A stretch of 64,000 nt of DNA from Pyrinomonadaceae bacterium (GTDB lineage: Bacteria; Acidobacteriota; Blastocatellia; Pyrinomonadales; Pyrinomonadaceae): the NCBI GenBank assembly GCA_014380365.1, contig JACMJZ010000029.1, positions 496,001 through 560,000 of the forward strand, read 5' to 3'. Positions 7,890 through 46,975 of this stretch are shown one piece after another (the first letter of the stretch is position 1; each line of letters starts with the position of its first letter). The notes beneath the pieces were generated by a model. That model saw only the letters and a program-made list of their open reading frames with translations, ran no database searches and was not told the origin of the DNA. The translations under genes were made by a program, and so were the position numbers.

Positions 7890-7978
7890 GAGTAGGACAG
7901 GCATTCCTGCCTGTCCAGTTCTCTCCACCCTGATCACCTTTCGAAGAACAGGACAGACAGGAATGTCTGTCCTACTGG
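7890..7978. repeat. REP palindrome pair downstream of the RAYT gene
   Basis: Two palindromes, 7891-7918 (gtaggacaggcattcctgcctgtcc type) and 7951-7978 (ggacagacaggaatgtctgtcctac type), lie head to head 33 bp apart. The second contains the RAYT stop codon. They match the pair on the other side of the transposase gene. Confidence 0.85.
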
Positions 7979-8520: not shown

Positions 8521-8655
8521 GTAGGACAGGCATTCTTGCCTGTCCTCGGATGGTTCCAAAGCTTTAAGAGGACAAGGGCTATTATCGCTGGATACCAAAG
8601 CTCTGGCATCCTTTGTAATCCGAGCAAGGGACAGACAGGAATGTCTGTCCTACCC
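8521..8655. repeat. REP palindrome pair upstream of the RAYT gene
   Basis: Palindromes at 8521-8549 (gtaggacaggcattcttgcctgtcc) and about 8630-8653 (ggacagacaggaatgtctgtcctac) mirror the pair at 7890-7978. The second provides the stop codon of the neighbouring esterase gene. Confidence 0.85.
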
Positions 8656-12805: not shown

Positions 12806-12996
12806 GCTTGCATTTACTCTGTCTAGCCAATTATGTTCTCGTGACCGTGTTGGAACATCAACGAGGCTCGGATAACGACTGCCGACGATTGCTAACGCCG
12901 GAGAAATCCTTGACTTTCTCTGGGAGGCGGAATAGGGTGCGACCGTTCTCGTAGTTGGCTGAATTCTCACAGCCCTCGCTACACCTGCATCCGCAT

Positions 12997-15913: not shown

Positions 15914-17623
15914 ATGAGTTACCTGGATGTCCCCAGATTACATTTCGCCGGAACCTTCAGTGCGGATCCCTCAACCGTCAACAACACGCCGCAAAACTTT
16001 GATCCGGCAACTGTCATAACTTCGCAAAACTATGGCTGGAACCCTTACGGCACGGGCCACTGGCAAATCCTGAATTGCCAGGTGCAGAGCGTCGTCTATA
16101 ACGACGGCTCTATCGGCAGCGCTGCCGTTGACGATCCGGTCATTGGCAGTCCGGTGCAGGGAACGGACCAGCCGCAGGTCGCGAAGCTGGTAGACCTGGA
16201 CTCAGAGCAACAGATGGTCTCAGAAATCTACGGCTTTCAAGTTCAGCTTAGCGACTCCGCCGGGTCCGCCGCATTGGTCGGCAACTTTGAGGTCGCGGGT
16301 TTTTACGACATCTGGTTTCGCGCGACCGTGGGCGGCGGCGACGCACCGATGGGCGCGTTCTATCAATCGGTGTTGACTAACCTCCAGTGGGGTGATGTTT
16401 CAAATTCTCGTTTCCTTGAGCAGTTGATGGCCGCCAGCCCGGACCTGCTATCCATCAAGTTCAACCTGGACGGCATCGACATGAATTCGAATAGCCCGAC
16501 TTTCACGCAGGGCAGACTCGTCGGCACCATTGGGCCGGCCACTATCGCAGAGCCAAAGCATTTTGTCGCCGGCAGGCTCTTGCGCAGCGCGCCCGGAACT
16601 GATCCGAATAATCCGCCGATAACGCTTCAAGGCACGCCCCCGGCGTGGCCGATGTTTTTCGCGCCCTTCCGCGTTGATGATCAGCGCCAGGTGGTGTTGG
16701 TTGACTTTGGCAACAGTATCTCGACGACGACGCCGGGAGGGCCGGTCAATCCGGCGCTGGGCAATTTGCAGTTGGCCATACTGCCTGCCTCTGGCAATTC
16801 GCTGATAGGCCAAGTCAACTACCAAGCGCCAAACTGGTATCCGGATACGGCGGGGATTCAAGAGTTTGCCCTGCAGGACTTTCCAGTCGACATCAATCCC
16901 CTGGGCATCGTGCAGTTAAATCCTGACGGAAGCATTAGCGCGCCCCTTCTGCAGGAGGATTCGAACGGGCTGTTTGTCAGAGCTGACACTTTCGTTTTCA
17001 GACTCAATCCGGGTGAGACCGCGGACGTAAATTTCTGGGCGACGCAATTCGGACAGCCGGCTGCGCAACAGCAGATTAATTTGGCCCAGGACGCAGATAT
17101 GGTCAACCAGATGCAGTCTCCGCCCAATCCGACGAACATCCCCGTCGGTACACCGGCCAACGCCCTCGCTGCTGCGTCTGGACCCTTCCCAACCACCGCG
17201 ACAACGAATAACTTGGGTCAGGCCACGCTCACCCTGAGCGCCTCCGATCCGGGCAACCCGAGGGTATTTATCGACGGCCAGGTTTACGGAGTCTCCTATG
17301 TCCTGGCGGCAAGCAATGAAAACCCTGACCCCTCAAACTTCCTTAGCGTCCTGGTCTTCAATAGTTACCCACAGCTGGAAAATCCAATCTGGCAAGACGT
17401 GAAACCAATCTTCGCGCAGTATGCGAAGCTTTATCCCTACATGCGAGGTATCATCGACCTTGCCTGTTACACCGATGTGGTAGCGAATCTCGCGGGAATC
17501 CAGCGCGTGTTCCTTTTGCCGAAGACCGATCCGGGATACATGCAAGTGACCCGCGATATGTCGCGCGACAAAGTGAACATGATTCTAAAATGGCTGGAAC
17601 TGGGTGCACCGTTCGACCTCTAA
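15914..17623 (+). CDS. VioB N-terminal-like protein, copy 1
   Basis: 569 residues, no signal peptide. Starts MSYLDVPRLHFAGTF at an ATG with a good AAGGAG site (15901). From memory of the family, this N-terminus and the C-terminal segment (LYPYMRGIIDL, then DPGYMQVTRDMSRDKVNMILKWL) correspond to the N-terminal and middle regions of VioB, the heme/ferritin-like iminophenylpyruvate dimer synthase of violacein biosynthesis. The ferritin-like C-terminal half of VioB is absent here and occurs as a separate gene at 27278. Paralogue of the gene at 29133. Homology recognised by eye; function inferred. Confidence 0.7.
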   Translation: MSYLDVPRLHFAGTFSADPSTVNNTPQNFDPATVITSQNYGWNPYGTGHWQILNCQVQSVVYNDGSIGSAAVDDPVIGSPVQGTDQPQVAKLVDLDSEQQMVSEIYGFQVQLSDSAGSAALVGNFEVAGFYDIWFRATVGGGDAPMGAFYQSVLTNLQWGDVSNSRFLEQLMAASPDLLSIKFNLDGIDMNSNSPTFTQGRLVGTIGPATIAEPKHFVAGRLLRSAPGTDPNNPPITLQGTPPAWPMFFAPFRVDDQRQVVLVDFGNSISTTTPGGPVNPALGNLQLAILPASGNSLIGQVNYQAPNWYPDTAGIQEFALQDFPVDINPLGIVQLNPDGSISAPLLQEDSNGLFVRADTFVFRLNPGETADVNFWATQFGQPAAQQQINLAQDADMVNQMQSPPNPTNIPVGTPANALAAASGPFPTTATTNNLGQATLTLSASDPGNPRVFIDGQVYGVSYVLAASNENPDPSNFLSVLVFNSYPQLENPIWQDVKPIFAQYAKLYPYMRGIIDLACYTDVVANLAGIQRVFLLPKTDPGYMQVTRDMSRDKVNMILKWLELGAPFDL

Positions 17624-17725
17624 AGCAACCAGCAGACGCTAACCAGCCGGTGCCCGAGCGAATGAAGTTGAGGAATCCCGGGGAGCGCTTGGAAATTTCA
17701 GGTTGAGGAACTGAAACAGGAAAAG

Positions 17726-18421
17726 ATGAAACGCTATTTACTTATCGTGGCGGCAACGATTGCCTTCTTCCTGACGCTGTTCTTTGCGGTCCAGGCATTG
17801 GGCGTCCCGTTGCTGGCAGATCCGACGCCGTGGATGCGACAGGGTGGCATCCTGGCGGGCATCCTGGGCGTAAGCCTTCTGATTGCGGATGTCCTGCTGC
17901 CGGTGCCATCCAGTCTGGTGATGGTGGCCCATGGGGCGCTCTTCGGAGTTCTAAAGGGAACTCTTCTTTCGCTGCTCGGGAGCATGGGCGCGGCACTAGT
18001 CGGATTTGCCATCGGGAGACGCGGTGGCAAATTGCTGGATCGCCTTGTGACGCCGGCAGAACGAGCGCGAGCCGATCAGATGTTGGCTCGCTGGGGAGCT
18101 CTTGCTGTAGCGTTGACGCGCCCGGTTCCGTTGCTGGCCGAGACCACTGCGATCATGGCGGGTGCATCACCTCTAGCGTGGCGACGCATGGCGCTGGCTT
18201 CCCTGGTCGGTTCGCTGCCACCATCTCTAATCTACGCTTTCACCGGAGCGGCAGTCGTAAACTTCCAGAGTACGGCGATGATGTTCGGCGCAGTCCTGCT
18301 GGCCACTGGTTCATTCTGGGTGGTAGGGAGACTACTCGATCGTTACTTAAGCAAAAGAAGAAACCGTCGCGACGCAGAGCAGCCTGACACAAACAGCGAC
18401 CTCAAGTTGGCGCAAGAGTAG
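17726..18421 (+). CDS. VTT/DedA-family membrane protein (TVP38-like)
   Basis: 231-residue polytopic inner-membrane protein with about six hydrophobic segments. Contains the VTT-domain re-entrant style segment ADVLLPVPSSLVMVAHGALFG and the later RPVPLLAETTAIMAGASPL, both with the proline/glycine pattern of the family. DedA/TVP38 proteins are lipid-carrier or scramblase-related transporters. Hydrophilic tail KRRNRRDAEQPD. Follows the VioB-like gene by 102 bp. Confidence 0.88.
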   Translation: MKRYLLIVAATIAFFLTLFFAVQALGVPLLADPTPWMRQGGILAGILGVSLLIADVLLPVPSSLVMVAHGALFGVLKGTLLSLLGSMGAALVGFAIGRRGGKLLDRLVTPAERARADQMLARWGALAVALTRPVPLLAETTAIMAGASPLAWRRMALASLVGSLPPSLIYAFTGAAVVNFQSTAMMFGAVLLATGSFWVVGRLLDRYLSKRRNRRDAEQPDTNSDLKLAQE

Positions 18422-18428
18422 CGACGCT

Positions 18429-18863
18429 TTACTTAACGCGCGTCAGCGTTCGTATGTAGGTGACCTGATCGCCGATGATTAGGGTGTCCCCGTTCAACTC
18501 GTACGGCCTTGCCTGCGGTGACCCGACTTGAGTCGGATCCCATGCGCCTTCCACTTGCACCGTGATATTTGCCGCGTCAACGGTGTACGTGCCGTAGTAG
18601 GCGATGTATCCATTGTAGATGGCGAGCGCTTCCTCCGCCGGCGGAGGGTCTGAAGAGATTGCGACGGGAGGCGTTGTCATGATTTGTATCGACGCATGGC
18701 CCGTCGCGTCGTAAATGAAATAACCCGACGGAGGATTACCAAAGGTATACGGTATCCACGGGTCGTTGGCCGAGGCGCGGTCTTCGGCGGAAATTAATCT
18801 CCATGTGCCGACAAGTTGTTTCTGTAGACTCTTGAGAGATGGCTTCTTAGGTTTTGAGTTCAT
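18429..18863 (-). CDS. Lipocalin-like domain protein
   Basis: 144 residues, no signal peptide. LVGTWRLISAEDR at the start, then GYFIYDATGHASIQIM, YYGTYTVD and the late GDTLIIGDQVTYIRTLTRVK match the small lipocalin-like domain (PF13924) of soil bacteria. Start ATG 18863 (MNSKPKKPSLKSL), preceded by AGGAG. Convergent with the VTT gene, only 7 bp away. Ligand unknown. Confidence 0.8.
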   Translation of the reverse strand: MNSKPKKPSLKSLQKQLVGTWRLISAEDRASANDPWIPYTFGNPPSGYFIYDATGHASIQIMTTPPVAISSDPPPAEEALAIYNGYIAYYGTYTVDAANITVQVEGAWDPTQVGSPQARPYELNGDTLIIGDQVTYIRTLTRVK

Positions 18864-19175
18864 TTCAGTGCTCCTTTGAGGTTGAGGTAATGCGTGCAAC
18901 GCGTTACTCCACTTTCGCGAGCTGGCAATACTCGGTGCGTAAAAACGATTCGATCAGCGCGAATGGCAAGGCCGGCGGGCCGGAAGTTATCAGTTTCCAT
19001 AGGGACGATGCGACAGTCTCCAGGAATGCGTCAAATCCTATTGACACTTCCTTGCAAGCTCGATTATCCTCGCCGCCGACTTCGCTTCCTTTTACGCCAA
19101 GCCATCAAAGTACAGCTGAGTGGCCGACAAAGCAACACTCAGTCAACCTTAGCTTCACGATCAGGAGTCCATACC

Positions 19176-19598
19176 ATGAAAAAGCTTTCTCACTCGATCC
19201 TACAGGCCTTCGTATTGGTCGCAGCGCTGATTTGCCTAACGCAAACTGCCAGAGCGCAAGACCCCGTCAAAGTAGACCCCAGGCACTATAAAGTGATTAT
19301 GGAAAACGACAGCGTGCGCATACTAGAATTCAAGGATGCACCCGGCCACAAAGTTCCCAAGCATTCACACCCACCTTACTTCGTTTACGTATTGAGCGAC
19401 GCCAAGCGTTTATTCACCGATGAATGCGTCACGCCGAAAACAGTGATTCTAAAGACCGGTGAGACGATCGACAGCAAAGTTGGAGTAACGCACTGTGAGG
19501 AGAACGTCGGGTACACAAACACCCACGTTCTGGTGGTTGAATTCAAGACTGCGCCAAAAAAGATGGCGAGATCTCAAAGAAACAGACGAAACCATTAG
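19176..19598 (+). CDS. Secreted cupin-like protein
   Basis: 140 residues with a signal peptide (MKKLSHSILQAFVLVAALICLTQTARAQ). The mature domain has a cupin pattern: RILEFKDAPGHKVPKHSHPPYFVYVLS provides two His near a Glu, and KTGETIDSKVGVTHCEENVG supplies the late His. Start ATG 19176 with AGGAG upstream; the longer frame before it is non-coding. Probable periplasmic metal-dependent or binding protein; not part of an obvious operon. Confidence 0.82.
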   Translation: MKKLSHSILQAFVLVAALICLTQTARAQDPVKVDPRHYKVIMENDSVRILEFKDAPGHKVPKHSHPPYFVYVLSDAKRLFTDECVTPKTVILKTGETIDSKVGVTHCEENVGYTNTHVLVVEFKTAPKKMARSQRNRRNH

Positions 19599-19794
19599 CC
19601 TGTTTCCTCGCAGGGTTCAGCCGCTGCATTACTATTGACTGATTCCGATACTGGGCATAACATGCGCGGCGTCAGCAGAGAATATCAACGAAGAATATTG
19701 GCGTGCTTTTCTCGTCACGCGTCCCTGATCGCACTTAGCGTCTCTCAGCTTTCACTTGGTGCGCCTGCAGTGTTTAAAAACTAAAGGAGTAGTT

Positions 19795-21342
19795 ATGGGC
19801 ACGACTCTTACTCACAGCGGAAGGGCCTCTCTCATTTTCCTTGGCGTCACGTTAATAACTTTCGCGAGCTTCAGTTGTCAACCATCGCCGCCCAGCAATG
19901 CGAACCAGAACGCGAGGGTCGAGACGGCTGCTCCCAGTCCTGCGCAGATCGTGATACCTCCCTGGCCGACAGGATTCCCATCAAACATGCCTTTGGCTGC
20001 CGTGTCAGGCAACATTCCGCAGCAGGTCCTGCTACCCGGACTTGGATTGCCCGGAACCTTTTCGACACCTCTGGAAATTCGACCCTACTTCGATTACTTC
20101 TCATGGGAATCATTCATCGCCCTAAATTGGCCGGCGGCAACCGGCGCTCGCGGTGTTCCCAATCAGCCCAACAACTCCAGCGTGTTTCTCAACGCCGCCG
20201 CCGGCACCCCCGTCGTCTGGGGAACTTACAAAGACTCATTCGATCTCTTTGGACAGAAGGACCAGAGGCCGAGTCCCTGGGAGTCGAACACTAGTCCAAT
20301 CAGTCCGTGCGCGAACGGACAGCCGGGTGCGAAGACACTGATCTTTGTCAGCAAGGGCAATACGCCTTTGATGGAGACCAAGCAGGCGTTCTCGTTCCCG
20401 CTAGTCGACCAGCAGGGCAACTACGTCTATTACGATATTCGCTATGATCAGGCGCAGTACAATTTCATTCGCGGTCAGGAAGGCCAACCCTCAACGTACC
20501 TCTACCTCTTGAAGAATCTGGCGCCCGCGGAGAATGCTCAGTTCGGCGTGCAGATGCCGATGACCACGGCGCCGTCACCGGCGCCAACCCCGTCGGCTAC
20601 CCCGGCCCCGTCGCCCGCGAGCACGCTCGGCTCCATCATGGTGAAAGCTGCCTGGCGCATCAAAACCGACAAGGACGATGCCAGTCGGTTCTACACGACC
20701 GCGGCACAGACTCTCGATCCCCAAACTCAAAAATGTACGCCCGTCACGGTTCTGCTCGTCGGACTTCACATCGCTCACAAGATAGATCCGTTTACAGAAT
20801 GGGTTTGGTCAACCTTTGAGCAGGTAGACAATGTGCCGCCTGATGCCGACATAAAGCCCCAACCACCCGTTCCACCCAACGGCTATTCGTTCAACAACGG
20901 CACGACCAATCCCAGCACCACCGGTGGATACAGCTACAAACCGGCGGTCGCGGCAACACCGTCCCCGTCACCGGTGCAGGTGACGCGGGTGAATCCCATT
21001 CCAAGTACTCCGGCGGGCCAGTCCACGCGTGAAGTCAACGCTTTCTACCAGCAGCTTTTGAAAGGGACGGTCTGGCAGTATTACCAACTGGTGGTCACGC
21101 AGTGGCCTTTCAATCCCGGCATTGGCCAGGGCAACCCCTACATGCTGATGGAAAACGGTGGTGTGTACCCGCAGAACGCCGGCAGTGCGTTCCCCGTCAA
21201 CGGCGCGGTCAACACGACCATGGAAACCTATTTTCAAACCCAGAATGATGCCGCCGGAGCGGGCGGTAATAGCTGCATGAGTTGTCATTACAGGGCCGGG
21301 CAATCTGACTTTAGCTGGGGCCTGAACCGGAGGGCACACTAA
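19795..21342 (+). CDS. Lipoprotein with C-terminal CxxCH heme motif
   Basis: 515 residues. Signal peptide with lipobox-like FASFSC (Cys about 28), then low-complexity linkers (PAPTPSATPAPSPAS and ATPSPSPVQ). The extreme C-terminus contains SCMSCHYRAGQSDFSW, a covalent-heme CxxCH. That C-terminal placement resembles proteins in which a cytochrome-type site is attached to a large binding domain. ATG 19795 has a strong AAAGGAG site. The stop overlaps the next gene's start (TAATG), so translation is coupled to the PQQ-like propeller. Exact family not recognised. Confidence 0.78.
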   Translation: MGTTLTHSGRASLIFLGVTLITFASFSCQPSPPSNANQNARVETAAPSPAQIVIPPWPTGFPSNMPLAAVSGNIPQQVLLPGLGLPGTFSTPLEIRPYFDYFSWESFIALNWPAATGARGVPNQPNNSSVFLNAAAGTPVVWGTYKDSFDLFGQKDQRPSPWESNTSPISPCANGQPGAKTLIFVSKGNTPLMETKQAFSFPLVDQQGNYVYYDIRYDQAQYNFIRGQEGQPSTYLYLLKNLAPAENAQFGVQMPMTTAPSPAPTPSATPAPSPASTLGSIMVKAAWRIKTDKDDASRFYTTAAQTLDPQTQKCTPVTVLLVGLHIAHKIDPFTEWVWSTFEQVDNVPPDADIKPQPPVPPNGYSFNNGTTNPSTTGGYSYKPAVAATPSPSPVQVTRVNPIPSTPAGQSTREVNAFYQQLLKGTVWQYYQLVVTQWPFNPGIGQGNPYMLMENGGVYPQNAGSAFPVNGAVNTTMETYFQTQNDAAGAGGNSCMSCHYRAGQSDFSWGLNRRAH

Positions 21343-23282
21343 TGGATAAGAAAACTGAATTAGCGCGCGCCACAGGTCGCCGGTTAACGGCAACTCCGTC
21401 GATACCCATACCGCCGCCTCTGAACGTCGCTGCTGTTGCTGCTGCACCGGCTCCCACCACCGCGCAGACACCCACCGGTTGGTGGATGTATCACGGCGGT
21501 CCCGACCACACTGGCTTCGTTTCCGATAGCGGCCTGACGAGTGCCAACTTCAAGAGCGGCAGCAGTGCGCCGCAGTTCACTACGCTTTTCACGCTCTCAC
21601 TTGAAGGTCCGGTGCTCTCAGTGCCTGCCGTCACCGACGGTTTCGTCTATGTCGGCCTGGCCAATTCCCAACAGGCCCAGGGCGGTAACGGGGGCGCGCT
21701 ACACAAAATAGACATTCAGACGGGCCAGATTGTTAAGACCTTCAATTGGGACTTAGGCACTGCGGCTCGCGATGCGCATAGCTTCACGGGGATGGGGAGT
21801 ACGCCGGCCGTCGTGAATGGACGTGTCTATTTCGGGGCCTTCAATGGGCAATTCTACTGTCTCGATCAGGAGACGTTGCAGCCCGACTGGGTTACAGATC
21901 TCCGCAACGCCGACCCGGCACACAACCAACCCATCACTAATGACGCGGGAGTCTCGGCCGGCAACCCGCCCGCGGTCGTGTGGTCGTCTCCAGTAATCAC
22001 TGCCGACGGCAAAAGTCTCTATGTGGGTTGCGGTGAAGGTGAGAATCCGGACCTCTTCAGCTTCGTCTTCTGTCTCGACACCGCGACCGGCAAGGTCAAT
22101 TGGATTTACTGCACGAACCAGTTTGACGACGCGCAAAACAACCAGCCGAACGTGTTGCCGGCAGCGGTGGTCGACGCATCAACACTGCCCCCGATGTTCA
22201 GCACTTCGAACGCAACGCCGCACATGGGCTGTTCCGTCTGGGGCGCAATTGCTTACGACAGCGAATTGAATTCTATCTACTGCTGCACGGGTAATCAGCA
22301 GCCCGAACCAAATGACGATTGGCCGGGCGTGGGGACGGCGCCACCGCCGCCGCCCTATTTCCACCCCGAACTACCCAGCAAGGGATACTCAAACGGGATA
22401 CTTTCTCTGGATGCGGGGACGGGTGAGTTTAAGGCTTTCTATCAGGTGCCCCGCGACAGCAACTACCGTCCCTCCGACATCGACATTGATAACGGTGGGG
22501 CGCCGGTGCTTTTCACATTAAACGGGACCAAGGTCGTCAGCTTCGCCTGTAAGAATGGAAGCTGCTTCGTCCTGGACGCCACGACTCTAGAGTGGATCAA
22601 CCAGCGCCAGATGCTTCCCCTTCGTAACGATGGCACCAGGATTGAGACAGTGGATGCGCACCCTGACCCCAATGACACGACGATTAATCCTCATCTGTCC
22701 AATGAGTTTTCCGATGCCGTACCCAACGAAAACTTCTCCGGCGTCTTCAACACCGGCGCGCTCTACCCCGGTTCAGAGGATAATCCGCAAACAATCTCGC
22801 CGCGCATTTTCTTTGGCATGGGCGGGCCAAACTATCATTCGCAACATCCGGGCATCGATCACGAATCCACCCCGTTTATGCGGGCAATCGATCTTAGTTC
22901 CGCCACGCTCGCCGATGCCTGGCCCACGGACACTGGCGACCCGCCCCTGTATCAGCACACCTCGAGCACCGACCCTACGACCGGCCAAACCGTGGGCATG
23001 TATGCCAGCGCCGGCGAGAGCGGTCTGAGTTCGCCAGCCGTAGTGAACGACGTCGTGTTCTGTTCGACGAGCAAAATCTCCATCTACGCCTTCGACGTGC
23101 GCGACGGCACCTTGCTATGGAACGACGACCTAGGCATGCAGACCGACGGTTACAACGGCGGCTATGGTTACTGTCTCGGTCCTGCCATCTGGAAGAATTA
23201 TGTAGTGGCGGGGGCGCTGGTGTTTGGCAGGGAAGGCGGCGGTGTGCTGAGAATTTACGGCTTGCCGCAGTCAACGAAGTAA
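21342..23282 (+). CDS. PQQ-like beta-propeller protein
   Basis: 646 residues with repeated propeller blades such as GFVYVGLANS, GRVYFGAFNGQFYCLDQETL, KSLYVGCGEGENP, FCLDTATGKVNWIY and ISIYAFDVRDGTLLWNDDL, the pattern of alcohol-dehydrogenase-type quinoprotein repeats. No classical signal peptide is seen: the N-terminus is a Pro/Ala-rich stretch. It starts inside the stop codon of the CxxCH lipoprotein, strongly implying a protein pair such as a quinoprotein with its cytochrome-bearing partner. Whether PQQ is bound cannot be read from sequence alone. Confidence 0.85.
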   Translation: MDKKTELARATGRRLTATPSIPIPPPLNVAAVAAAPAPTTAQTPTGWWMYHGGPDHTGFVSDSGLTSANFKSGSSAPQFTTLFTLSLEGPVLSVPAVTDGFVYVGLANSQQAQGGNGGALHKIDIQTGQIVKTFNWDLGTAARDAHSFTGMGSTPAVVNGRVYFGAFNGQFYCLDQETLQPDWVTDLRNADPAHNQPITNDAGVSAGNPPAVVWSSPVITADGKSLYVGCGEGENPDLFSFVFCLDTATGKVNWIYCTNQFDDAQNNQPNVLPAAVVDASTLPPMFSTSNATPHMGCSVWGAIAYDSELNSIYCCTGNQQPEPNDDWPGVGTAPPPPPYFHPELPSKGYSNGILSLDAGTGEFKAFYQVPRDSNYRPSDIDIDNGGAPVLFTLNGTKVVSFACKNGSCFVLDATTLEWINQRQMLPLRNDGTRIETVDAHPDPNDTTINPHLSNEFSDAVPNENFSGVFNTGALYPGSEDNPQTISPRIFFGMGGPNYHSQHPGIDHESTPFMRAIDLSSATLADAWPTDTGDPPLYQHTSSTDPTTGQTVGMYASAGESGLSSPAVVNDVVFCSTSKISIYAFDVRDGTLLWNDDLGMQTDGYNGGYGYCLGPAIWKNYVVAGALVFGREGGGVLRIYGLPQSTK

Positions 23283-23371
23283 GCCCGCAGCGGCAGCCGC
23301 GACGCCGGCCCGTACTCTTGTCTCAAACGGCGGCGCACCCACAAAACACAACAAAATGAGGGAGAACCATA

Positions 23372-23602
23372 ATGGCCGTTTCTTTCAGCAATGACATCCA
23401 GCCCCTTTTCAGTCAATTCAAAGGGCAAATGATGTGGCGCTTTGACCTCACCAATTATGACCACGTGAAGGCCAACGCCGCACTCATCCTTTCGCGCATC
23501 AACGACCCGGGCTATCAGATGCCGCCCCCGCCGATGGACCCATTGACGCCGGACCAAATTCAACTATTCCAACAGTGGATCAACGACGACTTTCCACTAT
23601 AA
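23372..23602 (+). CDS. 76-residue protein resembling the tail of the VioB-N-like proteins
   Basis: Complete small protein with an initiation site gggagaaccATAATG. FSNDIQPLFSQF, VKANAALILSRI, DPGYQMPPPP and PLTPDQIQLFQQWI line up with the last ~80 residues of the VioB-N-like proteins (DVKPIFAQY..., DPGYMQVTRD..., VNMILKWL). The framework (DI-PLF at the start, MPP and a final W-I helix) also recalls planctomycete-type cytochrome c domains, but no CxxCH is present. It follows the propeller gene by 89 bp, likely in the same operon. Function unknown. Confidence 0.72.
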   Translation: MAVSFSNDIQPLFSQFKGQMMWRFDLTNYDHVKANAALILSRINDPGYQMPPPPMDPLTPDQIQLFQQWINDDFPL

Positions 23603-23622
23603 CGATGCTTTGCAAAAAAAGT

Positions 23623-23736
23623 CTGAATCCCACCCACGGAAGTGGGTTGGATGGTTCAGATCCGGCCTACCGAGTTGTAGTAGCCGAACTCCTGAATCCC
23701 CCCAACGGCAGTTGGGGGATTGTTCAGATCCGGCCT
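23623..23736. repeat. Two tandem hairpin repeat units
   Basis: Units 23623-23668 and 23692-23736 share ctgaatcc...ttcagatccggcct ends around different perfect stems (cccacccacggaagtgggt and ccccccaacggcagttggggg). The stems differ but each is self-complementary, showing compensatory change. They sit between the end of the operon and the convergent mntP-like gene. Confidence 0.75.
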
Positions 23737-23823
23737 TCGCATCCCAAGAGACTAACGACGGCGAACAATTCGGAAAGTGGAGAGGCGGCGATGAATGATC
23801 TATTCTCCCCGGCTGCATGAGTC

Positions 23824-24360
23824 TTAGAAATTCTCAATCGCCAGCACTAGCGCGATCAAAACAAGCGCCACGCCGCCGACCAGTTCGGTGTTAATCCTCA
23901 AGAAGTTTACCGCCAGGCTTCCCATCCATAGACCTGCCAGGGACATCAACGCACTCATCGAACCGATGACGGCAACCGAAATCAATAACGGAAAGCCGAC
24001 CATTCCCAGGCTCGCCCCGGCAATCAGGTTGTCCAAACTCAGCGAGAGCGGCAGACCCAGCACAATCCAGCGGCCCGGTTCCCTTTCTTCTTCCCCGGCG
24101 CAGAACTTCGCCCTATAGATCACATAAGCGCCATAGGCGCAGAGTGCGAGCGGGCCAAGGTATTCCGTCCACCCGCCGATGTACGTGACGAGCGACTTAC
24201 CGATCAGTAGCCCGACGAGCGGCGCCAGTCCATCACACAATCCGAAGGCGAAGACGATTTGAACCCGCCGCAGTCGACTCAGCTGCAACGCTCCCAATCC
24301 GAGCGAGACGCGAAAGCTGTCGAGGCTCAGAACGAATCCTAATAGAAGTAGAGTTCCCAT
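23824..24360 (-). CDS. MntP-like manganese efflux pump family protein
   Basis: 178 residues, six hydrophobic helices, no signal peptide. The two family Asp-containing motifs are visible, LSLDSFRVSLGLG near the N-terminus and LSLDNLIAGASLG in the second half, consistent with the MntP/DUF204 inverted-repeat fold that exports Mn2+. It is separate from the operon upstream by a 222-bp repeat-bearing gap. No yybP-ykoY riboswitch was recognised in front. Confidence 0.87.
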   Translation of the reverse strand: MGTLLLLGFVLSLDSFRVSLGLGALQLSRLRRVQIVFAFGLCDGLAPLVGLLIGKSLVTYIGGWTEYLGPLALCAYGAYVIYRAKFCAGEEEREPGRWIVLGLPLSLSLDNLIAGASLGMVGFPLLISVAVIGSMSALMSLAGLWMGSLAVNFLRINTELVGGVALVLIALVLAIENF

Positions 24361-24424
24361 TTCTCGCTGGCTTTTGACAAAGAGTCGAATGCTAACCTCT
24401 CTGAGAAGACTATAGAAAATGAAT

Positions 24425-24511
24425 AACGCTGAAAGCGTTGGTTAATTCCAGCCCAGGGTTGCGGCAACCCTGAGACTCTGCGCCCTCAGAGAATCACAAC
24501 GCTTTCAGCGT
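24425..24511. repeat. Nested inverted repeat
   Basis: Outer arms ACGCTGAAAGCGTTG (24425-24439) and CAACGCTTTCAGCGT (24497-24511), with an inner CAGGGTTGC/GCAACCCTG hairpin. The same acgctgaaagcgt core recurs at 37694, 39280 and 46761. Confidence 0.75.
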
Positions 24512-24582
24512 AACTCGTTTTCGGACGAACCCTTAAACTTTCGACTTTTTGTAAAACAGCAGTCTGCCCTCACACGTGGCTT

Positions 24583-25869
24583 TCACGCGGGCGAGCGGTA
24601 GCGCCAGAGCTTGCCGCTGTTCGCTTTCGCGTTCACCGCACCGTTGTCGAGCATTTCAAAGTGCCCAAAATCCAAAATATAAAGTTCGTTGCCCAAAGAA
24701 TTGAAACGAACATCGATCGGTCGTAGAAGTCCCTCGGGCACGAAGGGGTGAAGACTCCAATCAGATGGATCGACGCGGACCACAGAGCGTCCGACCCTCG
24801 GCCCCGAAGGCGCGGTCATGGGGACCTCATCCCCGAAGAGTGCGACGAACAGGTGACCCGCCCAGCGCGCCGCGCTCTCGGGTGCGACCGCAAACTTGGC
24901 CGCAGCCGTATGTGGCGGAAAGCATAGCCGCGGCCTTTCGGGCGGAGGCAGCTGGTTGTGGTTCGCGAGCAGGAAAGTGGGAGCTGCGCCTCGCTCTGGT
25001 TGATAACGCAAATCGGTGATCGGCACATCACCGATAAAATCCGGCCAGCCATACCACGCTCCTTTGCGTACCTCAAAGAGCATGTCCGGCGCATTGCCCA
25101 CCGGCCGGCTGCCACGATCGTCTGCTCCCTGATCGATTGCCAACAGTCTTCCGTCAGGAAGAAACCCCAGCCCATAAGCGCTCCGCAATCCCCACGCAAC
25201 CAACTCCAGCTCGCTGCCGTCAACGTTGCAACGCATGACGGCGGCGGTGCAGGGTAATTGCGCGGCGATGCGTTGCTCACGATCTGTGCGCTCTCCGAAA
25301 GGCACGAATGCACCCGTCTCCGTTCGCGCATCGTCCTGCGGGCTCAACGGGTCAGGCGTTTCAACGTTTACTCCATTCAGGGTTATGTCGTAGCCAGGCA
25401 AGTCGTGGTTGTGAGGCAGACGGCGCAGCCACCCCAGTTCATACGAGTCGAGGCCGATGATCCCGCTATTGGTCATCGCGCCCTGGCTGAAATAGAGTTT
25501 GCCATCTGCGTCAAAAGTCACCATGTTCGTGTGGTAGTTGCCCGGGCCGGGCAGGTTTTCCAAAATCACCTTCTGTGAGCGGCCGTCCAGGTCGAAGTGG
25601 CTGATGCGTGCCGGATGTCCTCCTTCGGAAACGTAAAGACGGTCATGATGAAGCGTGAGGCCATTGACGGGTGCGCGTAGATTGTCGACCAGCAGTGTGC
25701 GGAGCGGGTTGGATTCAAGACGCCAAACCCGGCCGCCCGGCGAGGGCCCATGGAACGACAGCCCCGACTCCGCGACATAGAAAGTCCCGTCCTCCCCAAT
25801 CGCCAGGCTCGTCGGGAAGGAAAGCTCATCAAACAGCATTTCCAGAATTGGGCTGCCGTGCGCCGCCAT
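24583..25869 (-). CDS. Sorbosone/sugar-dehydrogenase-like beta-propeller protein
   Basis: 428 residues, no signal peptide. NHL/GSDH-type propeller features: FPTSLAIGEDGTFYVAESG, APVNGLTLHHDRLYVSEGG, YHTNMVTFDADGKLYFSQGA, GLRSAYGLGFLPDGRLLAIDQGADDRG and GAWYGWPDF, the last two typical of PQQ-dependent glucose/sorbosone dehydrogenase relatives. Last gene of a four-gene minus-strand run (ferritin-like, 303-residue protein, GAF, this), 43 bp after the GAF gene. Substrate unknown. Confidence 0.85.
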   Translation of the reverse strand: MAAHGSPILEMLFDELSFPTSLAIGEDGTFYVAESGLSFHGPSPGGRVWRLESNPLRTLLVDNLRAPVNGLTLHHDRLYVSEGGHPARISHFDLDGRSQKVILENLPGPGNYHTNMVTFDADGKLYFSQGAMTNSGIIGLDSYELGWLRRLPHNHDLPGYDITLNGVNVETPDPLSPQDDARTETGAFVPFGERTDREQRIAAQLPCTAAVMRCNVDGSELELVAWGLRSAYGLGFLPDGRLLAIDQGADDRGSRPVGNAPDMLFEVRKGAWYGWPDFIGDVPITDLRYQPERGAAPTFLLANHNQLPPPERPRLCFPPHTAAAKFAVAPESAARWAGHLFVALFGDEVPMTAPSGPRVGRSVVRVDPSDWSLHPFVPEGLLRPIDVRFNSLGNELYILDFGHFEMLDNGAVNAKANSGKLWRYRSPA

Positions 25870-25912
25870 ATGCTACCGATTGTTTTATGAGACTAGCGAA
25901 CGAGGTGTAGAT

Positions 25913-26329
25913 CTATTGCGGTAAGGCCGCGGCCATTTCCATCAACGACTGTTGTTCCGCCGCCCCAATTTCAGCTTCATGACTCCACGCGATGCCAACC
26001 ACTGCGCTTACGGCACCCGCCGCATCAAGCACCGGCAACGCGATTGCTGCCTGGGCGTTGACAGCCTTAGCGCCCGGTTTGATGTTACCTGTTTCGTCGG
26101 TCTGCAAGTTGCACGTTTGCACCGGCTCCTTCCTGACCTGGGCCACGCCAGCCATTCCCTTGCCATGGGGCACGTGGGCCACGATGGCCACCACGTTAGG
26201 CGGGATGTTATGCGCAGCAGTCAAATACAGATCCTCGCCGCGCTGCACATGCACGGTGCCGGCAATTCCGTCACGCTCGGCGACGAACGACTCCAGCCAT
26301 TCCTGCTGGGCTTGGTTCTTTTCGTACAT
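25913..26329 (-). CDS. GAF-domain protein
   Basis: 138 residues, essentially one GAF domain. Recognisable pieces are VHVQRGEDLYLTAAHNIP, HVPHGKGMAGVAQVRKEPVQTCNLQTDE and AAIALPVLDAAGAVSAVVGIAWSHE. Start ATG 26329 with GGAGAG upstream. Stand-alone GAF domains bind small molecules or heme, or act as redox sensors (compare fRMsr), but the catalytic Cys pattern of methionine-(R)-sulfoxide reductase is not complete. Located 31 bp after the 303-residue gene, so it is in the operon. Confidence 0.82.
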   Translation of the reverse strand: MYEKNQAQQEWLESFVAERDGIAGTVHVQRGEDLYLTAAHNIPPNVVAIVAHVPHGKGMAGVAQVRKEPVQTCNLQTDETGNIKPGAKAVNAQAAIALPVLDAAGAVSAVVGIAWSHEAEIGAAEQQSLMEMAAALPQ

Positions 26330-26360
26330 CCTGACTCTCCTGACTTTCTTGCTCCTCTGA

Positions 26361-27272
26361 CTACGCCTCGCACGCAATCGGGATTGACAGATACCCGGAG
26401 ATGTAGCCGCAGAGTGCGTCGCCGTCCCAGCCGCCAATCCAGAAGCTGAGCGGCCAGGTCGATTTCGCGTCCGCGCCGATCTTGTTCGCGTGGACCGTGC
26501 CGTTGACGTCCACGCTCCAGCCGTAGCCTTGCAGCGTCAACTGGTGCGCGCGGCGGTCAATAATTTTGCCGCCCTGCGACAATTCCCACCAGCGGCGGAG
26601 GATGTTTAGCTGACTAATGCGCGTTTGCAGCGCGGCGCGCTCGACCGGCTTCTTTGTGTGCCTGAGCAACTCTTCCAGATTCCTCTGCCGGATACGGCGA
26701 TTGATGATACAGGAATCGTTCGAAGCGTCGGGCAGACCCGTTGCCTTGGCGACCTCGACGGAGTTGTCAGTCAAGCCCTGCGGCTGGCGGCGCACAAGCA
26801 TTTCGGAGGTGGCCTGCGTGATGGGCAGGGCGGGGTTGCTCGGATCAAGAAAGTCTTCGCGGTCGAGCACGAGCGCGCCGCTCTTTTTTCGCAACTGCAC
26901 GCGCAATGGATCCAGGGCAAACAGGTCGTTGCGAATGACGATGCCGTTGCGCTCGGTGAGTTGGGCGTTGACGAAGGAGACGCGCGCGTCCAGGTATTCC
27001 GGCGCTTCCTTATAGACGAGCGATTTGTCGTCGAACCACTTCGCCTGCTGCACCGTCACGCCGACGCGAGGGCCAATGTCATTCTTCCCGTAGCCAAAAC
27101 GGCGCTCGCAGACGCCCTCTTCGTCGGGCTGAAGGTGGACAAGGTTGTCAAAGTCCGGCTCGCCGGCAAGCGCGAAGGTGTAGCCGCTGACGCCGCGCGG
27201 CTCGTCCGTCGGGTCTGGATCGGTCGCCATCCGCATCTGAAAATAACCTTCAAACGAGAGATAAAGCCACAT
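26361..27272 (-). CDS. Hypothetical protein co-encoded with the ferritin-like VioB-C protein
   Basis: 303 residues, no signal peptide or TM helix. Opens MWLYLSFEGYFQMRM; contains a basic stretch INRRIRQRNLEELLRHTKKP followed by a Trp-rich segment, and ends GYISGYLSIPIACEA. I do not recognise the family. It begins 5 bp after the ferritin-like gene, so the two are almost certainly co-translated partners. The first ~60 residues and the Gly/Trp-rich C-terminus look like beta structure. Confidence 0.72.
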   Translation of the reverse strand: MWLYLSFEGYFQMRMATDPDPTDEPRGVSGYTFALAGEPDFDNLVHLQPDEEGVCERRFGYGKNDIGPRVGVTVQQAKWFDDKSLVYKEAPEYLDARVSFVNAQLTERNGIVIRNDLFALDPLRVQLRKKSGALVLDREDFLDPSNPALPITQATSEMLVRRQPQGLTDNSVEVAKATGLPDASNDSCIINRRIRQRNLEELLRHTKKPVERAALQTRISQLNILRRWWELSQGGKIIDRRAHQLTLQGYGWSVDVNGTVHANKIGADAKSTWPLSFWIGGWDGDALCGYISGYLSIPIACEA

Positions 27273-27277
27273 GATTC

Positions 27278-28684
27278 TTATTCCCCCCTTCCGACGTTTT
27301 TCCAGTGCGCGCGCCAGTCGTCACCGAGCCGCCGCATGTTCTCCGACATGTAGCGCAGGCGCTTGACGATTGGGTCGTCCGCGGGCCGTAGCTCGTAAAT
27401 CCAGAGGTTGTCGAACTGCCACGCGAGGATGTCGAAATACTTTTGAAACTCGGTCCAAAGATGTGCGGGCTGCGGCAGCACCAGCTTGTCCTGCGAAAGT
27501 TCGAATCCTGGCCCGGCGTTGCCGTTCTTGTCCTTGAAGGCGGGAAGCTGCGTCAGTATCTCGCTCAAGGGGCGGATGAACATCGTCATCAACGGGAAGA
27601 AGATGGCGTTCATCAAATCGACTCTCTGTTTTTGCGTCTTGGCGCTGCCGCCGTAGAGGAACAGCATCATCAGGAGCATCGTCTCGTAGGTCAGGTTGAA
27701 GAGACTTGCTATCTCGCGCGTTTCGGGGCGGGTGATGATGTTGACCTCGCGCGGTGCGGTGATGTCCGGGTGCATCCTCGTCAAAGGATTACGCACGACC
27801 GGCCGCGCGGCGTCGAAGCCGGGCTTCTCGTTGAGCATGTCTCTAAGCATGTTCGTGTAGATGCAATAGTGCGTGTGCTCCACGTAGTCGGGCGGCGCGA
27901 GGATGCCTTCGCCCTGCTCGACGATTTCGACGATCGCGTTAATCGCGCTCTTGAGATCGACGACCTGTATGACGTCCAGGTCGTATTGGCTGAGGTCATC
28001 CATAGAGCCTTCGCTGTAGGGGGTGCCCGGCCCGCCCCAAATCTGCGCCTTCACGTTGCCGATGAACAAATTCCGCTCGCCGATTCTTTCCGCGACAGCG
28101 ACGAAGCCAGCCGCGAGACTCAAGTAGAGGTCTTGCACGGAGGTGAACTCGATCTCGGGCTGTGGTATTTGCGTGGCACTTGCGGCGGCGGTTGCTGCCT
28201 GTGCCTGGCGCTGCGTAAGAACTTGCGGCGCGAGCAACAGCGCGCGGATGTCCTCGCGGGCGACGCCGCGCGTGGCGCAGTATTCGGGGCCGGGTTCCGG
28301 TTGCGGGGCCTCGAAATCCTGAAAGCGTTTGATCGTTTCTTTGTCGAAGCGCGTGAGTTCCGACTTGATGCCCATCTTCCCGTAGCGCTCTTTGCGTTGC
28401 GGGAAGTTGGGGCGCTGGAAGTAGGGTGTGCCGCCGATGGCGTTGAGAAGGTTCAGCACCAACCCCATGTGCTCCATCTCCTGCCGCGCAACCATCGTCA
28501 TGAGCGCGCCCCAGCCGCGCGTCTTCTCCAGTTGCACTTCGCTGAGGCCCTCACTCGTTGAGCGCTTCATGCTGTAGGCGGCAAACAAATACTGGCACAT
28601 CAAGTTGTGCTCGAGTTCAGCCGCGAGGTGCAACGTGTCGATTAAGTCTTCGCGGGTGGTGAGTTCTATTGTCAATGGAGTCAC
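27278..28684 (-). CDS. Ferritin-like protein resembling VioB C-terminal half
   Basis: 468 residues. The first ~110 contain AAELEHNLMCQYLFAAYSMK and, about 45 residues later, MVARQEMEHMGLVLNLL: E...QYL and E-x-x-H pairs that form a ferritin-like di-metal or heme-proximal site, as in the PF12902 ferritin-like domain at the VioB C-terminus. Further on come HTHYCIYTNMLRDML and LTYETMLLMMLFLYG, again VioB-like. The N-terminal half of VioB is missing. Cytoplasmic. First gene of a minus-strand operon, divergent from the second VioB-N-like gene at 29133. Confidence 0.8.
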   Translation of the reverse strand: MTPLTIELTTREDLIDTLHLAAELEHNLMCQYLFAAYSMKRSTSEGLSEVQLEKTRGWGALMTMVARQEMEHMGLVLNLLNAIGGTPYFQRPNFPQRKERYGKMGIKSELTRFDKETIKRFQDFEAPQPEPGPEYCATRGVAREDIRALLLAPQVLTQRQAQAATAAASATQIPQPEIEFTSVQDLYLSLAAGFVAVAERIGERNLFIGNVKAQIWGGPGTPYSEGSMDDLSQYDLDVIQVVDLKSAINAIVEIVEQGEGILAPPDYVEHTHYCIYTNMLRDMLNEKPGFDAARPVVRNPLTRMHPDITAPREVNIITRPETREIASLFNLTYETMLLMMLFLYGGSAKTQKQRVDLMNAIFFPLMTMFIRPLSEILTQLPAFKDKNGNAGPGFELSQDKLVLPQPAHLWTEFQKYFDILAWQFDNLWIYELRPADDPIVKRLRYMSENMRRLGDDWRAHWKNVGRGE

Positions 28685-29132
28685 CTCAAAAGTTTTTGTG
28701 TCGTGAGCAGCAAGTTCGTTTCAATTCAAGAGTGAGGCGCGGAGACTATTACAGTCGATGATTGGTGTCAATCCGTTTGATGTGGCACGCGCATCTTGCG
28801 CGTGATTCACGGGCGGGACGCCCGTGCCACTCTTCAAACTGACCTCAAGCGGCGAGTTTCTATTGACACTTTAGAGAGAGGCGGAGTATGTTTTGCCTGC
28901 TCAACCATCGTCAACGTGCGACTCACAAGCGAAGGCCTCGCGTTGGCGAAAAATCAAGTAAACCAGGGTTTAGTTAGGGCACGGTCTACCGTCGCTGTCA
29001 GGGTTCTTATTCCCTCCCGGCATACCATGCTCCCCGGTGCCCAGACTCAGCAATGGGTTTGTAATTTAGTAGACCGGCTGGGCTCAAGCTTACACGTCTA
29101 ACTGCGATCAACGTTCGACTCGAGGAGACGAT
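28685..29132. promoter_or_regulatory. Divergent intergenic region between VioB-C-like and VioB-N-like genes
   Basis: 448 bp without a supported gene. It must hold the promoters for both divergent genes. The only clear structure is an inverted repeat at 28782-28830 (gtggcacgcgcatcttgcgcgt...gggacgcccgtgccac). I could not identify convincing -10/-35 pairs. Confidence 0.45.
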
Positions 29133-31088
29133 ATGAGTTATCTGGATCTTCCCCGCCTTCACTTCAGCGGTCTGTTTTTCACCAACCCGAATACAATCAA
29201 TAACGTCACTCAAAACTACACTCCGGGTATCAGCTTTGAGAACCCTCCCCCCGCGCCCCCCGATCAATACAACATGAACGCCGGGCCTGACCCCGGTGAT
29301 TCGGGCTGGAATCCGTTGGGGGTCGCGCAATGGTGGCTCGAAGAATGTACCGTGTTGAGCGCAGTGGGAACCGAAGGCGTTGAGGTTGATGCGAGTGATG
29401 CGGTCATTGGCGCGCTGGTGGAAAGTCCCAGCCCGAAAACGCCGATGAGCGACGGCCAGGGCGGCTTCTACGACATCGCTAAGATGGTTGACCTCGATCC
29501 GGATCAGCAAGGCCGTAGCGCTCTCTACGGCTTGCGCATTGCCGTCACTCTGCCCAACGGCGCGGGACTGCAAGGGCTGATGACGGTTCCCGAAATACGC
29601 CAGATGGGGGCCCGGATTGCGATCGCGCAGTCAAGTTGGGGTGCGGTGTGCAACTGGATGGGAACACTTCAGGACGTGCAGTGGAGCGGCGACATCTCCG
29701 GCTCTCCTCTTTTGATCGCGCTACAGGCCGCCAGCGCGCAAGGCCTCGCCGTTAAGCTGACCGTCGATCTCCATCAGAACAATCCCGGAAACAACTTTAC
29801 CTCCGGCGACATGTTCTTTTATGGACGCGTTCTCGGTTCCATCGGGCCTGCTCTTTCGGGTGAATTGGCACAGGTGCTTCCGGGTCGTTGCCTGCAAAAA
29901 GTTACTCCAGCGACGACAGCCGCAGCCCTCGAAAGAGCCATGCCGACCAGTAACCGAGTATTGCAAGGTCGTGACCGTGTGGTAGCGCAGACGATGGCGC
30001 TCGGCGCGTTGAGAGATTCGCTCACCACCGAAGTTGCCGCCGCCGCCGCGCCCGAGCCGTGGAACCCGGCTTTCGCCATCGTGCGGCAGGCCAACGCGCA
30101 AGACCTCCTCAGCATAGACATCGGCGGGTGTATTCTTTTGAACGCGACGCAAGACCCTGACAACCCGAGCGGCCTTGCCTCTGACGGAAAGTTTGAAGTT
30201 GACTCCGGAATCGTAGTCGGCGTGTTCAACCTCGCGACTAAGAAATTCGTTGCTTTCGCCAACGGCGACATCAGCATAGGTCCTCAATATCAACAGTTGT
30301 CGTCCACGCCAAAGAATTGCATGTTGGTAAAGAACAGTTGTGTGTTCACCATCCTGCTTACTGGATCCGATGGTGACAGCTACAAGACGAACCCGCTGGC
30401 AATCCAGGTCAACGGCACGACGGTGGCCCAGGAGTATGGCAGTGGATATTGGATCGACTTTTCCGTCTCCTCGCAGCGGCTCGAATGTGGCAATGGTCAG
30501 ACCGGTCAGTCGCAAATCATGGTGCGGAAATTCGGCAATGCGGTCGTCGACGAAACACCTCCGGTAACTTCGAGTGTTCAGCTCATCGATTGGAGTCAGG
30601 GCGGCAACTTCAGTCCGTCCACCGACGTGGGGATCAGCTTCGGAAAAACTGATGCGAACGGAGTGGCCGACATCACCACCACAGTAAACGTCACCGACAT
30701 TACGCTGCCGCCGACGCGGCAACCCCTCGGCAGCCAGATTTATTACATTCTTATGAGCGATTCGAATCAGCAACCAGTCGGCGACGGCGGACCCCCGCAA
30801 AACCCGCCCGGCCTTTCGCTCCTCCTGTGGTCGGCATTCGAGGCGCCGGCAAATCCATCATGGAGCGACATCAGTCCGACCTTCACCGCCTACGCGCGTC
30901 TCTATCCGGGCATGAAATCCCGTCTGGACATCTCTGACGAAGCGACCGTGGTCGCCTTCGCTCCCGTTGTGCACGCGATGATGAGTGGGGACATCAGTGA
31001 CCCGTCATATATGCCCGTCACGCGCGACCTGTCACCCAGCATGATGGCCATGATCCTTTCGTGGCTGAAACAAGTCTCACAGAAATAG
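29133..31088 (+). CDS. VioB N-terminal-like protein, copy 2
   Basis: 651 residues, paralogue of the 15914 gene. Begins MSYLDLPRLHFSGLFFTNPNTINN and ends with the same module (LYPGMKSRLDI, DPSYMPVTRDLSPSMMAMILSWLKQ). Copy 2 is about 80 residues longer, with an inserted region around 230-330 (ALERAMPTSNRVLQGRD, AAAAPEPWNP). Cytoplasmic by lack of signal. ATG 29133 preceded by GAGGAG. Divergent to the ferritin-like gene and followed after 32 bp by a lipoprotein gene, so it is probably the partner subunit for the ferritin-like protein. Confidence 0.72.
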   Translation: MSYLDLPRLHFSGLFFTNPNTINNVTQNYTPGISFENPPPAPPDQYNMNAGPDPGDSGWNPLGVAQWWLEECTVLSAVGTEGVEVDASDAVIGALVESPSPKTPMSDGQGGFYDIAKMVDLDPDQQGRSALYGLRIAVTLPNGAGLQGLMTVPEIRQMGARIAIAQSSWGAVCNWMGTLQDVQWSGDISGSPLLIALQAASAQGLAVKLTVDLHQNNPGNNFTSGDMFFYGRVLGSIGPALSGELAQVLPGRCLQKVTPATTAAALERAMPTSNRVLQGRDRVVAQTMALGALRDSLTTEVAAAAAPEPWNPAFAIVRQANAQDLLSIDIGGCILLNATQDPDNPSGLASDGKFEVDSGIVVGVFNLATKKFVAFANGDISIGPQYQQLSSTPKNCMLVKNSCVFTILLTGSDGDSYKTNPLAIQVNGTTVAQEYGSGYWIDFSVSSQRLECGNGQTGQSQIMVRKFGNAVVDETPPVTSSVQLIDWSQGGNFSPSTDVGISFGKTDANGVADITTTVNVTDITLPPTRQPLGSQIYYILMSDSNQQPVGDGGPPQNPPGLSLLLWSAFEAPANPSWSDISPTFTAYARLYPGMKSRLDISDEATVVAFAPVVHAMMSGDISDPSYMPVTRDLSPSMMAMILSWLKQVSQK

Positions 31089-32722: not shown

Positions 32723-32783
32723 CTGCGTTTTGACGCCGCGCTTCCCGAGACAGCTCCGGTTAAGCGAGATGAGGACAAAGAAA

Positions 32784-33254
32784 ATGCAAAGACTAACCTA
32801 TGCTCTTAAATTTTATCGGCCTGCAAGCACAACGCCGGGGGGCGCGCCGATAGTCGCGTCGAGCAACTGTGTTCTCACAATCACGCCTGCCGGCGTCACA
32901 AAGGAAATCGGGACCTTCGCCCAGTACGAGACGGCGGTGTTGCAGACCACCCCGACGTTTGACCCGAAGAACCAGGAAAAAACGTTCACCGAGAAGGGGA
33001 TGGTCACATTCGGCCAGCCTCAAGCAAACAACCGGCTGCACTTCAGTTCCATCGGCCTCGGCCACATGGACGCCTACCCCTGCCCCGAAAAGCCTTTCAC
33101 GGGAGGCACCGTGATGTGGCAGATTGACAAGGGCGAAGGCTTCTTTAAAGGGGCAAAGGGAGCCATCACCTCCAACTTCCTCATTGACCTGACCAAGCCG
33201 CCCGGCCAGGGAGAGTTGATTGCTTATCAATACGGCGTGGTCTATCTCCCGTAA
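32784..33254 (+). CDS. Hypothetical beta-rich protein
   Basis: 156 residues, no signal peptide. Opens MQRLTYALKFYRPASTTPGG; contains ITPAGVTKEIGTFAQYETAV, RLHFSSIGLGHMD and GGTVMWQIDKGEGFFKGAKGAITSNF. The last piece recalls allene-oxide-cyclase/dirigent-like barrels (G-G-G plus ITSNF), a weak impression only. ATG 32784 is preferred over 32769 because GAGG lies at the right distance. 61 bp downstream of the kelch lipoprotein; same operon likely. Confidence 0.65.
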   Translation: MQRLTYALKFYRPASTTPGGAPIVASSNCVLTITPAGVTKEIGTFAQYETAVLQTTPTFDPKNQEKTFTEKGMVTFGQPQANNRLHFSSIGLGHMDAYPCPEKPFTGGTVMWQIDKGEGFFKGAKGAITSNFLIDLTKPPGQGELIAYQYGVVYLP

Positions 33255-46692: not shown

Positions 46693-46757
46693 GGCGAGGC
46701 ACGTTAGTGATTCGCAGTCACGATAGGTTGTCGAAAGGGTGAAGAAAGCGGTGGGCA

Positions 46758-46816
46758 GGCGAACGCTTTCAGCGTTAGGGTTACGGGCTCGCGAATTGGC
46801 GAACGCTTTCAGCGTT
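46758..46816. repeat. Direct repeat of a ctttcagcg hairpin
   Basis: ggcgaacgctttcagcgtt occurs at 46758-46776 and again at 46798-46816; each copy is a small hairpin (aacgctttcagcgtt). Same core as the 24425 and 37694 repeats. Confidence 0.75.
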
Positions 46817-46975
46817 CTTCCTTGAAACATTATTCCGACTCACTCCATCAATCCCGATCCGAATAGCTATCCCTTTCCGGCGTCCTGACCTAACATGTGC
46901 CGGGGCATGTGCGGGACATGTGCGGAGCGGGGCCCAGATCTCGGGCCCATTTCTGGCGGTGCTTCATGAGAGCAA

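Follow-up and report, generated by a model that had tools for sequence, protein, structure and literature searches.

Does a locus with separate genes for the two regions of VioB encode a VioB that is split into subunits? VioB (TIGR04492) is an iminophenyl-pyruvate dimer synthase, and RebD and StaD are chromopyrrolic acid synthases. The question is raised by a 64,000-nucleotide stretch of a Pyrinomonadaceae genome (contig JACMJZ010000029.1, positions 496,001 to 560,000; the window). Here, P1 (15914..17623, + strand, 569 aa) and P2 (29133..31088, + strand, 651 aa; a divergent lineage) are stand-alone proteins that resemble the N-terminal region of VioB, and P3 (27278..28684, − strand, 468 aa) is a stand-alone ferritin-like protein followed after 5 bp by P4 (26361..27272, − strand, 303 aa), which belongs to no known family. 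A first-pass annotation had proposed that P3 and the two N-terminal-like proteins form an enzyme of two subunits. The open reading frames (ORFs) of P1 to P4 and of their neighbors were intact, confirming that the genes are real and lie where that annotation had placed them. Below, relatives of the VioB N-terminal part (the P1 and P2 kind) are called N-type, and proteins that join an N-type and a ferritin part in one chain are called fused. The window genome is G000, other numbered G handles denote the other genomes searched, and L handles denote N-type loci from named genomes.

We favor, at slightly less than even confidence for the explanation as a whole, a reading in which P1 and P2 belong to the N-type family as stand-alone proteins and P3 with P4 is a redox unit, rather than parts of an obligate two-subunit VioB. 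VioB-like genes of this kind form a widespread family with poor annotation, of which the locus would be a variant encountered mainly within Pyrinomonadaceae, the family of the window.

P1 and P2 as relatives of the VioB N-terminal region

P1 and P2 are paralogous (26% identity over 676 columns, E = 5e-43), and profile comparison places them in a family that is homologous to the N-terminal part of VioB. When an N-type profile of 88 rows was aligned by hhalign with a VioB profile of 4 rows, the match covered template columns 1-665 of 1110 with a probability of 99.3 (E = 1.1e-20). Of the four VioB-type proteins in the latter profile, those of Pseudoduganella violacea and Massilia sp. exceed the VioB cut-off; the other two, long VioB-like proteins from Anabaena azotica, fall short of it. 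The proposed relationship to VioB thus held at the level of the family but not in direct TIGR04492 scans, which gave E values of 0.18 (P1) and 0.031 (P2). In this weak direct match the end of P2 was aligned at VioB positions 518-584, indicating that N-type proteins are equivalent to the N-terminal ~600 residues of VioB. The long Anabaena proteins (L137 and L138; 1111 and 1112 aa), both from one genome, have adjoining frames that by eye resemble FAD-type oxidoreductases.

Twenty-six residues were invariant across 55 aligned N-type proteins. All 26 were present in P1, itself one of the 55, and 25 in P2. For the two full VioB proteins the number was 18, and for the Anabaena pair it was 13, a value lowered because their rows ended at residue 620. 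Neither His nor Cys occurred among the invariant columns or those with ≥90% conservation in the 55 rows. The AlphaFold model of P1 was confident (predicted local distance difference test score (pLDDT) 91.3, predicted template-modeling score 0.92). Comparison of this model with the PDB by Foldseek and VIA gave no whole-chain match, with a template-modeling score by query length of ≤0.17 among the 50 matches listed. The best VIA match (Z = 8.2, 121 residues, root-mean-square deviation 3.3) covered model residues 353-483 and was read as an immunoglobulin-like region. PDB sequence searches returned one chance-level row only for P2 and no match for P3.

In a quickly computed N-type tree, the paired proteins were set apart by a branch, as were the fused ones. 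P1, the lone protein of L047 and the P2 group lay outside the paired and fused proteins, and VioB and P2 had long branches.

P3 and the arrangement of the parts in other genomes

The ferritin-like assignment of P3 was supported, both to PF12902 (E = 8.3e-36, 124.4 bits versus a gathering cut-off of 22.3) and to the ferritin-like C-terminal region of VioB. In direct scans against VioB, P3 alone among P1, P2 and P3 matched clearly (E = 1.1e-24). A tree built from 50 ferritin domains contained a branch with 100/100 support that separated the paired and fused proteins, plus two other proteins, from the P3-type proteins, the VioB C-terminal regions and a further six stand-alone proteins. A second, quick tree to which plasmid proteins were added recovered the same branch at 100 and resolved little beyond it. 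By these sequence trees, P3 is outside the ferritin group that pairs or fuses with N-type proteins. P3 and VioB share a side of the branch, but a sister relation between them was unsupported and the tree program warned of long branches meeting. The P3-type proteins were not one clade in the 50-domain tree and weakly formed one (45) in the quick tree. The ligand columns E25, E69, H72, E259 and H272 were kept in 6/6 P3-type, 4/4 VioB, 20/20 fused and 61-62/62 paired rows, the single paired-row exception being a gap.

Scanning named genomes yielded 184 confirmed sites with N-type relatives; the best 79 were kept, a selection that leans to relatives near P1, and these were spread over nine named phyla. 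The idea that separate genes are unusual was not borne out, as a separate ferritin gene directly followed the N-type gene in 55 of the 79 loci. In 20 of the 79 the two parts were fused, and the fused form also occurred in three relatives from the window's class. Four loci were scored as N-type only, of which L091 and L094 lie at a contig end and L115 has a ferritin gene upstream, leaving L047 as the only one truly alone. N-type matches were also found in eight plasmid records, all of which label the protein hypothetical; the four that were examined carried this N-type and ferritin gene pair under the annotations "hypothetical protein" and "ferritin-like protein". The split arrangement is therefore not itself novel, and it is the versions of the parts that are unusual in the window, where a ferritin of the paired group adjoins neither P1 nor P2. 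Although 184 places encode N-type relatives, no Pfam family exceeded its cut-off on P1, on P2 or on the N parts of the three fused proteins.

Co-occurrence, gene neighborhood and competing readings

Among 162 genomes of the class, P3-type proteins were found in four (G000, G154, G045 and G021), and P4 adjoined P3 in each of them. P4 matched five genomes and N-type proteins matched ten, and all five P4 genomes were among the ten (hypergeometric p = 2.9e-7, kinship ignored; p = 7.6e-6 when the weakly matching G017 was removed). G017, the fifth P4 genome, has only distant forms of both P4 and N-type proteins. Because of this overlap, the P3-P4 and N-type genes likely share one pathway, together with a TonB-dependent receptor and a VTT-domain membrane protein. 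The receptor (12955..15789, + strand) has a carboxypeptidase-regulatory domain and the TonB-hemin family as its best NCBIfam match, under the cut-off; the VTT protein (17726..18421, + strand) matched PF09335 with E = 1e-17. G000, G003, G083, G045 and G017 carry both genes near an N-type or fused gene, and the receptor alone adjoined the fused gene in the examined stretch of G021. The distant N-type gene of G017 has as neighbors the receptor (74% identity), the VTT protein (68%) and the GAF-like protein (79%), as well as a P4-like protein. The earlier expectation of a neighborhood conserved elsewhere was thus correct in part: the receptor, VTT and P4 genes recur, but the N-type gene of G154 lacks such neighbors.

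In G083, a run of genes with 55-71% identity to the window comprises, in order, P2, P7, the VTT protein, the receptor, a CxxCH protein, a PQQ protein and an MntP gene. P7 (31121..32722, + strand), which has a lipoprotein-like start as judged by eye, directly follows P2 in the window and also in G083 and G003. The CxxCH protein of the window (19756..21342, + strand) has a lipoprotein-like start and a C-terminal CxxCH, both judged by eye, and is followed by a PQQ-type beta-propeller protein (21342..23282, + strand; PF01011, E = 6e-17). From this run, the window looks like the G083 island with the addition of P1 and of a block of propeller, GAF-like protein, P4 and P3. As the first-pass annotation had described, P3 and P2 are divergent, and P4, the GAF-like protein and the propeller follow P3 on the − strand; 448 bp separate P3 from P2. 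The start of the GAF-like protein (25913..26329, − strand; PF13185, E = 3.5e-5, under the cut-off) was placed at 26329 within an ORF of 25913-26437; a GAF-like protein also comes after P3-P4 in G045 and G154. The GSDH-related propeller (24583..25869, − strand) matched GSDH with E = 6e-6 and the ScyD/ScyE family under the NCBIfam cut-off.

The structure model of P4, made with 5 sequences, was unusable (pLDDT 43.3). P4 had no match on plasmids, and among 388 genomes in the class of Anabaena azotica it matched that genome only. A reading of P4 as a short N-type domain was suggestive only and is not claimed: profile comparisons gave E values of 0.0037-0.021 at a probability of 2-9%, and the P4-like protein of G017 alone gave E = 1e-4 over 16 columns. 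Comparison with VioB gave E = 0.7-1, and a reversed control gave E = 0.14. A 1240-aa Symploca protein (L069:2605-6324) contains a ferritin-like part followed by a weak P4-like match (E = 2e-5 and 7e-6).

The reading of P3 and P1 and/or P2 as one two-subunit VioB-like enzyme, with P3 replacing a lost cognate ferritin, draws on the pairing or fusion of the two genes in other bacteria, on P3 being the only PF12902 match of the window genome, and on the presence of N-type genes in all four class genomes that have a P3-type protein. It was not borne out by the comparisons and we consider it unlikely. Not only does P3 lie outside the N-type-associated ferritin group and adjoin P4, but elsewhere it occurs near a fused protein whose chain already includes a ferritin domain (G021, G045 and the cyanobacterium Symploca, L069) or beside a complete N-type and ferritin pair (Anabaena azotica, L116). 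Moreover, four N-type genomes had no PF12902 match (G003, G083, G519, which holds L047, and G017, which is rated 100% complete), and G003 and G083 are the two that encode orthologues of P2. These two lone orthologues, at 62-67% identity, and the lone relative in L047 (43%) also argue against P1 being a decaying remnant of a fused or paired gene that lost its ferritin. Such decay would fit the match of P1 to three fused proteins from its class: P1 is 46-48% identical to their N parts, and their ferritin domain starts where P1 ends. P1 nevertheless retains an intact frame, the family invariants and a confident fold model, making this origin very improbable.

P3-P4 could instead be a generic ferritin-like oxidoreductase that merely neighbors N-type genes. 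Stand-alone PF12902 proteins are common elsewhere, P3 matched 166 plasmid records, some beside GMC oxidoreductase genes, and four genomes of the class (G051, G114, G100 and G072) have P3-related ferritin-like proteins and no N-type match. The co-occurrence in five of five P4 genomes renders this quite unlikely, as does the short distance (within ~6 kb) between P3-P4 and an N-type or fused gene in G000, G045 and G021. The P3-P4 pairs beside N-type genes in L069 and L116 cannot be counted for the link because both were found via their N-type genes.

Several observations weigh against the reading we favor, that of stand-alone N-type proteins and a separate P3-P4 redox unit. In G154, the N-type gene is on a different contig from P3-P4 and has neither the receptor nor the VTT gene nearby, and most of the relatives are metagenome-assembled genomes. 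When scored with a profile built from the four P3 proteins of acidobacteria, plasmid proteins from Asticcacaulis, Methylobacterium and Nostoc sp. UHCC 0302 reached 167-175 bits, nearly as much as the two cyanobacterial P3-type proteins (184-195 bits), and no P4 or N-type gene was present near these three in the stretches examined; the P3-P4 link can therefore be regarded as firm only within the window's class. Some P3-type proteins lack the fourth carboxylate, E269. In addition, P3 could have a cofactor other than a diiron center, since chromopyrrolic acid synthases are called heme-containing in PMC10851217.

Under the favored reading, P3-P4 would act as a redox unit. We place the redox chemistry in the ferritin part because His and carboxylate ligands are conserved there, whereas the N-type family shows no strictly or almost strictly conserved His or Cys. 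The N-type proteins may bind or position a small, probably aromatic, metabolite, and the TonB receptor and VTT protein, whose family assignments suggest envelope transport, would move this metabolite or its precursor across the envelope. With the redox chemistry in the ferritin part, N-type proteins in genomes with no PF12902 match may be binding or scaffold proteins or partners of another oxidase. In such genomes, the function of the N-type domain can be examined independently of a ferritin part.

The ebo link and other genes of the window

At least two ebo genes were located within 10 kb of the N-type gene in 19 of the 79 loci (raw count), which comprised 13 Pseudomonadota, 4 Cyanobacteriota and 2 Bacteroidota within L043-L121. 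The reference EboA, EboC and EboE proteins exceed NCBIfam cut-offs, the reference EboB, EboD and EboF were named by general families, and all other ebo genes were named by BLAST alone. On plasmid pAT1 of Aureibacter tunicatorum, a single run encodes N-type, ferritin-like, EboA, TatD, EboC, 3-dehydroquinate synthase, EboE and alkaline phosphatase family proteins. In L116 and L069, P3-P4 also lies near ebo genes. EboE (NF035939) had no match in the window genome or in eight other searched N-type genomes of the phylum, while the Anabaena and Symploca genomes, used as positive controls, were matched. The ebo link consequently bears on the N-type family and not on this locus. EboE was found in 47 plasmid records, and an N-type gene lay within 10 kb in 4 of the 30 listed (three Mycetohabitans and one Aureibacter), so most of the listed plasmid ebo clusters have no N-type gene. 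The link was not found in the portions of the ebo and scytonemin literature searched with the words VioB and ferritin (including PMC6282210, PMC5133447 and PMC9235831).

A broader and somewhat doubtful proposal is that the N-type/ferritin pair is an enzyme for oxidative coupling which, across several phyla, supplies periplasmic metabolites that depend on ebo (scytonemin-like export), and that the window is an ebo-free derivative, in which the N-type scaffold was freed from its ferritin, duplicated, and joined to the TonB receptor, the VTT protein and a new ferritin-P4 unit. The nearness of N-type genes to ebo genes would give the ebo cluster a candidate core enzyme, and a test. Two side observations concern these loci. 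By BLAST, relatives of a protein with ABM and glyoxalase-like domains (L087:9297-10001) occur in 21 of the 79 loci. In Mycetohabitans (L165:5519-8580), a LodA/GoxA family gene is followed by a gene annotated as tryptophan 7-halogenase, ~3.4 kb before an N-type/ferritin/ebo cluster; PF12902 genes are reported to adjoin fungal lodA genes (PMC4417212).

Several other features of the window were recorded. A small protein (32730..33254, + strand) has a homologue next to the fused gene in G045. The region between P3 and P2 contains two promoter-like sites on opposite strands (28863-28914; mean of 0.3 in shuffles; consensus match only). An IS200-type (Y1) transposase-like protein is encoded near the island (7972-8598). 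Farther away are an intradiol dioxygenase-type protein (45961-46830; PF00775) and a thiamine-diphosphate enzyme (53181-54899) with indolepyruvate decarboxylase as its best match (E = 2.5e-73, under the cut-off).

Comparison with known systems

Of the closest known systems, VioB was compared here, and RebD and StaD are named by description alone. The ebo cluster (PMC6282210, PMC5133447 and PMC9235831) is connected with this locus through the N-type relatives that lie near ebo genes, as described above, but the window genome has no EboE match. The common N-type and ferritin gene pair resembles the locus in that P1 is a member of its N-type family, with 33-46% identity to the 79 loci over the best segment, and it differs in that the window has no cognate ferritin gene after P1 or P2. 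No violacein pathway partner was recognized among the 20 window proteins (of 44 in the gene list) scanned against NCBIfam: the VioA, VioC, VioD and VioE families were absent from the matches listed. VioB carries both regions in one chain of ~1000 aa, whereas the window has three separate genes, whose whole-protein TIGR04492 scores of 9.5 (P1), 12 (P2) and 86.4 (P3) bits all fall below the curated cut-off of 1250. The likeness to VioB lies in the parts themselves, in the homology of the window's N-type family to the VioB N-terminal region, and in P3, which falls on the side of the ferritin tree that holds the VioB C-terminal region and keeps the core ferritin ligands.

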